From: Chlamydiota bacterium
GTDB lineage: Bacteria; Auribacterota; Tritonobacteria; UBA1439
Direction of reading: 5' to 3'
Length of the DNA: 64,000 bases
Assembly (NCBI GenBank): GCA_012729785.1
Contig: JAAYCL010000014.1
Location: 1-64,000 of the forward strand
The translations under genes and the position numbers were made by a program. Below are positions 6,077-55,365 of the stretch, piece after piece. The notes under the pieces are model-generated. The model was not told the origin of the DNA, made no database searches, and saw only the letters and a list, made by a program, of their open reading frames with translations. Every line of letters starts with the position of its first letter. Position 1 is the stretch's first letter.

Positions 6077-7101
6077 CGGCCAGGAGAACGCATATCTCGC
6101 TCAAGGAGATCCGGCGCTACGAGCTGCTCAACACCCGCGTCTGCGACCTGCCGCTGAAGATCGAGGGGCCGCTGCGGGACTGCATCCTCGCGCACTACCG
6201 GGAGCTCCAGGCGCGAAAGATACGGTTCAGGCCCCGTTTCTACCTCGGGGCCGAGATCGAGGACGGGTGGGGATGCGTGGACGGCACGATCTGCATCGAG
6301 GTGCCGTTCTACCTCGGGAACCCGGAGCTCATGGCGCTGCACAAGGAGTACTACGGTGAGGTGGAGGGGGAGGCGGAGATACTGAAGATCCTCCGCCACG
6401 AGACCGGCCATGCGATCAACTACGCCTTTCGGCTCCACGAGCGCAAGGATTGGCAGGGGATCTTCGGCGACTTCACGAAACGGTACCCGAAATGCTACCG
6501 TACGAAGCCGTGGAGCAAGAAGCACGTGCAGCACCTCGATTCCTTCTACGCGCAGCGCCACCCCGACGAGGACTGGGCGGAGTCGTTCGCCGTCTGGCTC
6601 ACGCCGGGGGTCAACTGGCGCCGGTGCTACAAAGGCTGGGACGCGATCGAGAAGCTGATCTACGTCGATATCATCATGAAGCAGATCGGCGGCGTCTGCC
6701 CCGCCGCGCGCCGCATCGCCTACGACGCCCCCGCCCGGAAGGAGCGGCGCACCCTCGCGGAGTTGTACGACGTGGAGGCGGTGACCGCGCTGGGCGAGCA
6801 GGAGATGGAGGACTACATCAAGGATCTCGGACAGATCTTCCTCCGGCGGGTGCGCCGCAGGGAGTACCACGTTGCCGCCGCCGACTTCCTCACCCGGTAC
6901 CGGGAGGCGATCATCTCCGGGGTGGCCCGGTGGATACTGCACTCGAACAAGAACTCGGTGCGCAAGATCATCCGCCGCATGAAGGCGGTCTGCCGGCACT
7001 ACGGGCTCGTGATGATCCGGTCGGAGGGGGCCGAGAAGCTCGCCGAGGTCACCGCGCTGGTGACATGGTACGTCATCAACGACATCTACGATTTGGATTA
7101 G
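6073..7101 (+). CDS. Putative zinc metallopeptidase-like protein
   Basis: A 342-residue soluble protein with a gluzincin-like signature: HETGH at residues 109-113 inside an RHETGHAINYAF helix, and DEDWAESFAVWLTP with E170 as a likely third ligand. The first 100 residues are conserved-looking but not recognisable; the C-terminal 120 residues are helical and basic. It resembles the uncharacterised zinc-binding metallopeptidase families (Peptidase_Mx type), and the substrate is unknown. No signal peptide is present. The ATG at 6073 overlaps the deacetylase stop, so it ends the coupled triplet. Its TAG stop (7099-7101) shares its last G with the first base of the transposase element. Confidence 0.6.
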   Translation: MTARRTHISLKEIRRYELLNTRVCDLPLKIEGPLRDCILAHYRELQARKIRFRPRFYLGAEIEDGWGCVDGTICIEVPFYLGNPELMALHKEYYGEVEGEAEILKILRHETGHAINYAFRLHERKDWQGIFGDFTKRYPKCYRTKPWSKKHVQHLDSFYAQRHPDEDWAESFAVWLTPGVNWRRCYKGWDAIEKLIYVDIIMKQIGGVCPAARRIAYDAPARKERRTLAELYDVEAVTALGEQEMEDYIKDLGQIFLRRVRRREYHVAAADFLTRYREAIISGVARWILHSNKNSVRKIIRRMKAVCRHYGLVMIRSEGAEKLAEVTALVTWYVINDIYDLD

Positions 7102-7155
7102 TAGACGTTGTATGCAACCGGCTGCTGTCGTTGATGTTGCGCATTAATTCGTCCC
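7101..7155 (+). repeat. Left 55-bp arm of the transposase element
   Basis: It consists of GTAGAC, a GTTG/CAAC mini-palindrome, a 27-base spacer and the inner motif AT/TCGTCCC. The inner motif read on the minus strand encodes the last residues and TAA stop of the transposase (stop at 7144-7146). Confidence 0.75.
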
Positions 7156-7836
7156 TCTTCCCGCCCTTCTCGGCGCTCCACGTGTTCCTGGTTGAGGGCG
7201 TCCGCCTATGATCCCGATTCGGCCGCGGAAGTCATCGTCTCCGGCAGGATCCGGATTGGCCCTGAATAGCCTCTCCTCATCCGCGTCGGAATCGCAAAGG
7301 TAGGAGATGTATCCCGCCATCCGTTGCGCGGCATCGGCGCCGAAACGCTCCCATATCGGGGCTTCCACGGTCACGGGGTCCGGGATGCCGAGGCAGTGCA
7401 GCCGCGCGCTGCTGTACGGGTATTCCCATGCGTGCGCTACATAGTGCGCGCGCACCGGGTTCCTCTCGATGTACCTGGCACACGCCAGCAGGTAGCGTTC
7501 AATCTGGATTGGCTGAAGACCGAACCGGCCCTGCCAAAGAAGGCCCGAGGTTTGGTAGACCCTGTGGTGGTAATGCGTGTAGGCCCGGTCGAGGCCGGCC
7601 ATAAAAGACGAGATCCTCCGTGGATCGGCGATCTCCAGGAGCAGATGGAAGTGCGTTCGCATCAGAACCCAGTGGTAGATGCTGAGTAGGGAGGATTCCG
7701 TGTATCGGCGAAGCAGACCTATGAAATAGGCGTAATCCTCCCCTGCACGGAACAGCGGGGCGCGGTTGTTCGTGCGGTTGTACGCGTGGAAGACAAGTGA
7801 ACCGGTAAGCTGATGCCTTCTGGCTCGCGGTGGCAT
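7144..7836 (-). CDS. REP-associated tyrosine transposase (Transposase_17, IS200-like)
   Basis: A 230-residue Y1-type HUH transposase. The HUH pair is THFHLLLE (H62, H64), and the likely nucleophile is in the ERYLLACARYIERNPVRA helix (Y115 by position), a pattern diagnostic of RAYT proteins. These enzymes cleave single-stranded DNA at palindromic REP sequences. The start is the ATG at 7836, preceded by GGAGGTGAAACT; a longer reading to 7920 would run through this site. The final residues G-T-N-stop are encoded by the conserved inner motif of the left arm. The gene looks intact, and the related 111-bp elements elsewhere in the window could be its substrates. Confidence 0.88.
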   Translation of the reverse strand: MPPRARRHQLTGSLVFHAYNRTNNRAPLFRAGEDYAYFIGLLRRYTESSLLSIYHWVLMRTHFHLLLEIADPRRISSFMAGLDRAYTHYHHRVYQTSGLLWQGRFGLQPIQIERYLLACARYIERNPVRAHYVAHAWEYPYSSARLHCLGIPDPVTVEAPIWERFGADAAQRMAGYISYLCDSDADEERLFRANPDPAGDDDFRGRIGIIGGRPQPGTRGAPRRAGRGTN

Positions 7837-7898
7837 AGTTTCACCTCCCATCAGATTAGTCGCGAAATGAGAAAAAAGATTACAGGAGAAATTGAGAC

Positions 7899-7953
7899 GG
7901 GGATAAATAGTTCGCAACACTCAGCGGCGGAGTATATTGGATACAACGTCCGC
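7899..7953 (-). repeat. Inner, diverged right arm of the transposase element
   Basis: Read on the minus strand from 7953, it begins GCGGACGTTGTATCCAAT (14 of 18 positions match the left tip) and ends ATTTATCCCC 55 bases later, so it has the arm geometry. It lies 62 bases upstream of the transposase start and 59 bases inside the outer right arm. Confidence 0.5.
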
Positions 7954-8012
7954 GTCACGGTTCTTATAAGTTGCCGGCTGAGGCGGAATGCTCGCCGTGG
8001 GTGGGACGGGGG

Positions 8013-8067
8013 GGGACGAATTATTGTGTAACTACAAGTGGCGGAAGTTGTTGCATACAACGTCTAC
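8013..8067 (-). repeat. Outer right 55-bp arm of the transposase element
   Basis: Read on the minus strand, it has the same 18-base tip as the left arm and the same AATTCGTCCC inner motif at the same distance. Its last base, C8067, is also part of the stop codon of arnD. Confidence 0.75.
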
Positions 8068-46381: not shown

Positions 46382-46492
46382 GAAGACGCTGTATGCAACT
46401 GTTTCCGCACGAATGTGGTATGGCATTATTCGTCCCGGGGACGATTAAATCCGTAAGATGTTGAAGCGGTGAGTGTTGTATACAACGTCTGC
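46382..46492. repeat. 111-bp palindromic element, solo copy 1 of the transposase-linked family
   Basis: Left arm 46,382-46,436 starts GAAGACGCTGTATGCAAC; right arm 46,438-46,492, read inverted, starts GCAGACGTTGTATACAAC. Both have 27-base spacers and TCGTCCC inner ends, meeting at one central base (CGTCCC-G-GGGACG). The geometry is the same as the arms of the 7,101-8,067 element, with no gene inside. It ends 17 bases before the peptidase start codon. Confidence 0.8.
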
Positions 46493-53859: not shown

Positions 53860-54807
53860 GTGGAACGGACGCTCGGCGACATCGGCGAGTTCGCCCTCAT
53901 ACGGGAGCTGAGGGGGCGGCTGTCCGCGGGGCCGGGGACGCTCGTCGGCATCGGGGACGATGCGGCCGTGCTCGAGCCGCCCGCCCCGGGGCGCGTCCTG
54001 CTCTTCACGACGGATATGCTCGTCGAGGGGACGCACTTCGACCTCGCCGCCGCCTCCCCGTACCGGATCGGGTGGAAGGCGCTCGCCTGCAGTCTGAGCG
54101 ACATCGCCGCGATGGGCGGCGTGCCGCGCGCCGCGGTCGTGTCGCTTGGCGCCCCCGGGGGGCTCGGCGTCGACTTCTGCCGCGAGCTGTACCGGGGTAT
54201 GGACGAGGCCGCCCGGCGGTTCGACTGCGGGATCGCGGGGGGGGACACCGTCGGGAGCAGTCGCGGGCTCGCCGTGTCGGTGGCGATGCTCGGGGATGTG
54301 GAGCGGGAGCGGCTCGTCTTGCGCTCCGGCGCCCGCACCGGCGACGGCCTCTGGGTGACCGGGTGGCTGGGGGGATCGCTCGCGGGCAAACACCTCGCCT
54401 TCACGCCGCGGGTGCACGAGGCCCGTTTCCTCGTCGAGCGCTTCCCGGTAACGGCGATGATGGATCTGAGCGACGGGCTCGGGAGCGACCTGTTCAGGAT
54501 GGCGGAGGCGAGCGAGGCGGGGTTCCGGCTGTGCGCCGGCCGGATACCTGTCGACAGGGCGGCGATCGGGGATGCGGACGAGGAGACGCTCCTCCGGAGG
54601 GCGCTCTACGACGGGGAGGATTTCGAGCTGCTCGCGGCGGTGGCCCCCTCCGTCGACGACGCCGTCGTGAAGGAGGCGTTCGACGCGCGTTTCGACTGCG
54701 GGATCCGGCGGATCGGGACGGTGATGGGAAAGGCGCACGGCATCACGCTCTCGACGCCGGAGGGGGAGAGGCCCCTCATCGAGGGGGGGTTTGCACACCT
54801 CGCGTAG
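53860..54807 (+). CDS. thiL: Thiamine-monophosphate kinase
   Basis: A 315-residue ATP-dependent kinase making thiamine diphosphate. Visible are GIGDDAAVLEP (metal site), FTTDMLVEGTHFD, SLSDIAAMGG and GGDTV near residue 130, then GLGSDLFRMAE and YDGEDFELL toward the end. The start is a GTG with GGGAGGCGCGC upstream. The TAG stop (54,805-54,807) lies within the first four bases (GTAG) of a 111-bp mobile palindrome, which therefore now ends the gene. Confidence 0.92.
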   Translation: MERTLGDIGEFALIRELRGRLSAGPGTLVGIGDDAAVLEPPAPGRVLLFTTDMLVEGTHFDLAAASPYRIGWKALACSLSDIAAMGGVPRAAVVSLGAPGGLGVDFCRELYRGMDEAARRFDCGIAGGDTVGSSRGLAVSVAMLGDVERERLVLRSGARTGDGLWVTGWLGGSLAGKHLAFTPRVHEARFLVERFPVTAMMDLSDGLGSDLFRMAEASEAGFRLCAGRIPVDRAAIGDADEETLLRRALYDGEDFELLAAVAPSVDDAVVKEAFDARFDCGIRRIGTVMGKAHGITLSTPEGERPLIEGGFAHLA

Positions 54808-54914
54808 ACGTTGTATATAACTCACGCCGCCGCAACGAGTTAATACTTTAATCGTCCCCGGTACGTTTAAAGTTGTAATTCGTTCTCTGGGAGTATGATG
54901 GATACAACGTCTAC
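54804..54914. repeat. 111-bp palindromic element, solo copy 2, between thiL and tsaE
   Basis: Left arm 54,804-54,858 starts GTAGACGTTGTATATAAC and ends AATCGTCCC; right arm 54,860-54,914, read inverted, starts GTAGACGTTGTATCCATC. Each arm is 55 bases with one base between, the same as copy 1. The left GTAG holds the thiL stop. The right tip holds both candidate ATG codons of tsaE (54,895 and 54,898) and its first residues. Confidence 0.82.
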
Positions 54915-55365
54915 CTTATTTATCTCTTCGGGACCTGAAGAGACGCGGCGCATCGGGGCGCGCATCGGCGCGCGCCTGAAGCCCGGCGCGGTGCTCGCGC
55001 TCCGCGGCGAACTCGGGGCGGGGAAGACCTGCTTCGTCCAGGGGCTCGCGGAGGGGCTCGGGATCGTCCCGCCCGCGCGCGTGAGCAGCCCGTCGTTCGT
55101 CATCATCAACGAGTACCCGGCGCGCATCCCGCTCTTCCATTTCGACCTGTACCGCCTCCCCGACGGGACTGAACTGGTCGAGCTGGGCTGGGAGGACTAC
55201 CTCGAGCGCGGGGGGGTGATCGCGATCGAGTGGGCGGAGCGGATGGCGGCGCTTCTCCCGGAGGACCGCATCGATATCGAGATCGAGGTCACCGGCGAGA
55301 AGAGTCGCCGGATCACCGTGCGGGGGGCGCAGGCGGAAAGACTGGCCGCGGATGGAGGCGGCTGA
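54895..55365 (+). CDS. tsaE: tRNA threonylcarbamoyladenosine biosynthesis ATPase TsaE
   Basis: A 156-residue P-loop ATPase that works with TsaB and TsaD to make t6A37 in tRNAs. Walker A GELGAGKT is at residues 38-45. SSPSFVIINEY, HFDLYRL and VIAIEWAERM are the conserved TsaE blocks. The first six or seven residues (MMDTTST) are encoded by the right tip of the 111-bp palindrome, so the element has supplied the start codon. No Shine-Dalgarno is well placed (GGGAG lies just upstream). tsaB follows 101 bases later. Confidence 0.92.
   Translation: MMDTTSTLFISSGPEETRRIGARIGARLKPGAVLALRGELGAGKTCFVQGLAEGLGIVPPARVSSPSFVIINEYPARIPLFHFDLYRLPDGTELVELGWEDYLERGGVIAIEWAERMAALLPEDRIDIEIEVTGEKSRRITVRGAQAERLAADGGG

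Follow-up and report, generated by a model that had tools for sequence, protein, structure and literature searches.

A palindrome from a dispersed repeat family forms the thiL stop codon and both possible tsaE start codons in an uncultured Ca. Auribacterota

Stop and Start Codons at the thiL–tsaE Junction

In the window studied here (the whole 64-kb stretch of DNA that was analysed, from genome G000 of an uncultured Ca. Auribacterota, whose contigs are numbered C), a 111-bp palindrome supplies both the stop codon of thiL and the two possible start codons of tsaE. We consider it most probable, at roughly 85%, that the palindrome is a dimer of TIRtron ends lacking a transposase, which was inserted at the boundary of the two genes and whose ends were adopted by both. 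On this reading, one window would bring together a mobile palindrome, a transposase gene bounded by the same ends, and an insertion that is fixed and apparently in use; tsaE would be a clear-cut case of important genes taking their stop and start from mobile DNA. The features of the junction are as follows.

54804..54914, no strand: palindromic element, 111 bp, two inverted 55-nt half-units with 1 nt between them
54804..54858, + strand: left half-unit (GTAGACGTTGTATATAAC...TTTAATCGTCCC); model R1, 47.4 bits, E 4.4e-12, whole genome
54860..54914, - strand: right half-unit, outer end with the tsaE starts; model R1, 39.3 bits, E 1.6e-9
53860..54807, + strand: thiL, thiamine-phosphate kinase; TIGR01379, E 4.9e-73, 319 of 320 profile positions
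54895..55365, + strand: tsaE, t6A-synthesis ATPase; PF02367 (Pfam TsaE), E 1e-39; TIGR00150, E 1.8e-31
54889..54893, + strand: GGGAG, a possible ribosome-binding site (from its sequence) inside the element, 4 nt before the second ATG

The two arms (54804-54858 and 54860-54914, 55 nt each) are 71% complementary, and the GC content of the element is 44% in surroundings of about 70%. As DNA, the palindrome folds better than 200 of 200 dinucleotide shuffles (z -4.25); as RNA, its folding z is about -5. At the left edge, the element's GTAG provides the thiL TAG (54805-54807) with its final three bases, and its initial G is the third base of the final thiL Ala codon. At the right edge lie both tsaE start candidates, ATG 54895 and ATG 54898, and the element encodes MMDTTS plus two bases of the following codon, giving (M)MDTTSTLFISSGPEETR as the predicted N-terminus. 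The original prediction had placed the TAG in the first four bases of the element, and both ATGs with the first tsaE codons inside it, as we find them.

Upstream of these ATGs, the open frame of tsaE contains no ATG, GTG or TTG. The next in-frame start downstream is a GTG at codon 33, past the conserved segment S.EET..G, and alignments of TsaE to its family relatives begin at about residues 2-11. A conserved downstream start, the first of two observations that had been named in advance as speaking against the prediction, is thus not usable here. Many N-terminal overlaps with REPs are probably annotation errors (PMC3733652), an objection that does not apply easily to tsaE because it has no downstream start before codon 33. 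Both proteins score as members of their families, thiL as far as position 319 of 320, so neither gene is visibly damaged; the claim that the junction was rewired with both genes left usable agrees with the two intact reading frames.

The Junction in Relatives

Throughout the phylum, thiL adjoins tsaE in 27 of 30 tsaE loci. Usable tsaE starts overlap the thiL stop, or lie within about 10 nt of it, in G002-G005 (same family, outside the genus); the gap in the window is 87 nt, and the junction of G001 (same genus) holds an unrelated spacer. No half-unit was found at the thiL–tsaE junctions of G001-G005, and with no family relative carrying the element there, the second adverse observation, the same sequence at all orthologous junctions, did not appear either. 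These tight, element-free junctions suggest that the insertion fell on a tight boundary.

A Dispersed Repeat Family

Copies were counted by motif and model searches of the G000 genome, together with inspection of individual loci. Allowing up to 2 mismatches, the end motif AGACGTTGTATNNAAC matches the genome at 43 places vs. 0 for the reversed control, so the junction element is not a chance sequence. With the sequence model, the 55-nt half-unit GYAGACGTTGTATNNAAC...TTTAATCGTCCC was found at 42 places (E <= 0.1), arranged as inverted pairs that abut (about 110-122 bp), as single units, and as pairs enclosing inserted DNA. The consensus of 38 aligned halves (55 nt) is GTAGACGTTGTATGCAAC-n4-TCCG-nn-GCAA-nn-AGTTA-n-GCCTTTAATCGTCCC, with GTAG or GCAG as the outer tetranucleotide in most of them. 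A second full palindrome of the family lies in the window.

46382..46492, no strand: second 111-bp palindrome of the half-unit family

One half-unit folded alone gave z -0.54 and no stem-loop of its own, and the hairpin formed by inverted pairs is conserved. Compensatory changes affect 17 of 38 base pairs (12 full inverted pairs), the covariation score is 0.287 vs. 0.167 for shuffles and at most 0.081 with the partners slid, and measures taken over the whole structure are higher than in any slid control and in all or nearly all shuffles. Selection on the hairpin would explain such covariation, as would arm-to-arm copying during movement.

Several individual loci are worth recording. Contig C4 carries three family palindromes within 3.1 kb (L090 4-3127). 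On C37, two half-units of the same orientation lie 1.1 kb apart (positions 55062 and 56206) with similar sequence after each, which looks like a duplication, and a 55-bp mini palindrome (G000:C37:79724-79778) lies between convergent genes that both end on its TAGs. At C25:67752-68332, the left neighbour gene reaches about 11 codons into the element.

A RAYT Gene Between the Same Ends

The window also contains a transposase gene flanked by half-units of this family.

7101..8067, no strand: sister element (TIRtron), half-units 7101-7155 (+) and 8013-8067 (-) around the RAYT gene
7899..7953, - strand: internal third half-unit of the sister element
7144..7836, - strand: RAYT-like Y1 transposase gene (REP-associated tyrosine transposase); PF01797 (Y1_Tnp), E 2.6e-8, above cut-off

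Against NF047646 (REP_Tyr_transpos, NCBIfam) the protein reaches E 1.8e-17, but its 63.6 bits fall below the cut-off of 80; the alignment to 4er8 has E 0.07. We read the HUH motif, as HFH in THFHLLLE, and the catalytic tyrosine, in ARYIERNP, from the sequence. Both convergent neighbours of the sister element end in TAG and have one base in common with the element ends.

Since the window RAYT has the same ends as the dispersed repeats, its close relatives were predicted to have them too, and a survey of 35 RAYT-type loci from the relatives' genomes and the window genome bore this out. Only the two closest RAYTs (53% identity; G002, genus g2) have AGACGTTGTA ends on both sides, within terminal inverted repeats of 51 nt at 78% (L154) and 54 nt at 72% (L161). 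A further RAYT locus of the window genome, on C36, has one such end, about 0.5 kb away, and none on its other side. The three next closest RAYTs (about 37-40%) have inverted repeats of different sequence; among these, the repeat pairs in G004 and G005 include GGGGACAC, which fits the published TIRtron motif GGGGWSAS. The three RAYTs with AGACGTTGTA ends form one clade (support 100/96), and together with the three next closest they make up a well-supported set (99/97), so that the element and RAYT clades run in parallel across genera of this uncultured phylum. To judge from these sequences, the RAYT at 7144-7836 is the likely source of the elements' mobility in trans; cleavage or joining of the repeats by it is putative. 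Dispersed copies, the linked transposase and orthologous junctions without the element all point to the mobility that the original prediction had assumed.

Gene Ends Supplied by the Elements

Gene ends were scored with a codon score of our own, for which 139 long ORFs served as training set, instead of a full gene caller. By this measure 9 of 26 GTAG element ends terminate a coding gene, vs. 59 of 1514 other GTAG sites (odds ratio 13, Fisher p 6e-7), and most other genes running into elements stop 5 nt or less before them. Three long genes of G002 also stop on the TAG of an element's GTAG. The GTAG ends of REPs are known often to provide TAG stops to neighbouring genes (Di Nocera et al., 2013; PMC3733652), so the stop-codon half of the finding is known in kind; and as TAG supply is common to the whole family, only the start-codon half is special to the junction copy. 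The original prediction was therefore correct that the element supplies stop and start, and its TAG half extends to the family at large.

Read outward, the usual outer end in most copies is GTTGNATACAACGTCT, with TTG in the context TTGGATACAACGTCT. The junction copy has GAT for GTT, so that the TTG reads ATG in the tsaE frame, with another ATG before it; a step from TTG to ATG would be deduced from this one copy. The same GTT to GAT change is present in the copy at C37:79724, with no evident gene start there. Among the element ends surveyed, only the junction copy supplies a sole start codon, and other genes leaving elements have a start candidate outside the element, mostly within about 20 nt.

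We offer tentatively that the GTAG tag of RAYT elements has a second purpose. A TAG in one frame would make insertion at a gene end harmless; at thiL–tsaE the other end would have become the only start of an important gene, so that a single miniature transposon forms both ends of the junction and perhaps determines the proportion of the two proteins. The GTAG statistics provide a testable reason for such elements sitting tightly on gene ends.

Translation Across the Junction

As to present function, the element could couple tsaE translation to that of thiL, a ribosome at the stop codon opening the outer stem and freeing the tsaE start. Such coupling is compatible with a transposon origin, and we think it unlikely. 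The thiL stop and the tsaE start do lie at opposite feet of one hairpin, and pairing of tsaE codons 3-7 falls from about 92% in the free RNA to about 50% with the stop-site footprint blocked. However, the same block lowers accessibility from 0.38 to 0.23 at the possible ribosome-binding site and from 0.48 to 0.05 at the second ATG, and the computed accessibility does not support the idea that a ribosome at the thiL stop opens the hairpin. A REP lying no more than 15 nt from a stop codon is reported to be able to reduce how well the gene before it is translated (PMC12306157). By analogy, a similar lowering of thiL translation by the junction element is possible.

Origin of the Junction Element

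The account we prefer, insertion of a TIRtron-end dimer, would run as follows. A copy would have been moved in trans, probably by the RAYT at 7144-7836 or a relative, and inserted without target duplication at a tight or overlapping thiL/tsaE boundary. The thiL gene would have kept its full domain, with the TAG of the element's GTAG end now as its stop. The native tsaE start would have been lost or cut off, and translation would now begin in the opposite element end, through the change of TTG to ATG and the second ATG before it. We infer the act of transposition, the transposase responsible, the order of the changes and the real use of the starts. No target duplication was found in the family: 0 of 15 flank pairs are identical over 3 nt, and 0 of 14 over 4-8 nt. 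Y1 enzymes are not expected to produce one, and the flanks are in this respect as expected.

It is improbable that the element is instead a MITE of another transposase, e.g., of IS4 type, with the RAYT as a mere passenger. At G000:C25:67752-68332 (L043 9753-10333), two half-units do surround a fragment of an IS4-family transposase, but this link was met once and involves a fragment only, whereas the RAYT link recurs at three loci in two genera and follows the RAYT phylogeny. IS4 elements also normally make a target duplication, contrary to the flank comparison above.

We give even less credence to a local regulatory hairpin of the thiL–tsaE operon (terminator, attenuator, riboswitch or promoter) that arose without insertion. 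A position between two genes of one operon and good folding as RNA would suit it, but copies lie on many contigs, next to unrelated genes, which largely refutes it, and the relatives' junctions lack the palindrome. Searches of the junction element also found no sigma-70-like promoter on either strand, no terminator-like site and no match to a known RNA family in Rfam, riboswitches included; the idea in the original prediction that the palindrome may bring a promoter finds no backing here. An integron attC site was rejected on end sequence only, as the ends do not fit the attC consensus RYYYAAC...GTTRRRY.

Comparison with Known Systems

The closest described type is the TIRtron or TIRYT, a RAYT gene between long terminal inverted repeats (Di Nocera et al., 2013; PMC3733652), many but not all of whose published repeats contain the motif GGGGWSAS. 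Here too a RAYT-like Y1 gene lies between long inverted repeats, and the same repeats also lie elsewhere in the genome, singly and as dimers (42 half-units in all). In contrast, the ends are GYAGACGTTGTATNNAAC, GGGGWSAS is absent from the 38-half alignment, and the present family occurs in Ca. Auribacterota. Our literature search returned no paper joining Auribacterota with transposition, and the name TIRYT in only two papers. The element family is new, while its type, a TIR dimer derived from a TIRtron, is already described.

GTAG REPs, REPINs and REPtrons share the outer GTAG, a RAYT partner, dimers of about 100 bp in inverted orientation and the supply of TAG stops to neighbouring genes, but the unit of GTAG REPs is 20-40 nt, vs. 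55 nt here, and the half-unit tested here has no stem-loop of its own. Bacterial MITEs (Correia/NEMIS, RUP, ERIC) are likewise small palindromes that lie near genes and code for nothing; where a mover is known, it is a transposase of another kind than the Y1 HUH enzymes, and the present elements differ in that no target duplication was found for them. RPE-1 of Rickettsia conorii is a mobile palindrome that adds residues to proteins, N-termini included (discussed in PMC3733652). Unlike the present family, RPE-1 is CGTC-tagged, has no dedicated transposase known and lies mostly inside reading frames.

Distribution Beyond the Genome

Among the relatives, the half-unit model matches at 38 places in G002, 22 in G003, 6 in G004 and 3 in G001, and exact inverted pairs are confined, within a set of 44 genomes from the phylum, to G002 and the window genome. 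When 84,980 genomes were scanned for exact inverted ends, matches appeared in a Lake Pavin Ca. Auribacterota MAG (JAPLCW010000129.1), at the same positions as in G002:C112, in two Omnitrophota MAGs, and in Thalassospira. Together these counts indicate an element family that occurs across this bacterial family and only patchily outside it. The 22 matches in G003 occur although the RAYTs found there are only distant, so transposase and element are not everywhere seen to pair one to one.

No relative of the window RAYT was found in the two Thalassospira genomes searched (L098, L103). The Thalassospira matches (L098, L103, L109) are 95-bp palindromes with AGACGTTGTA ends and a different interior.
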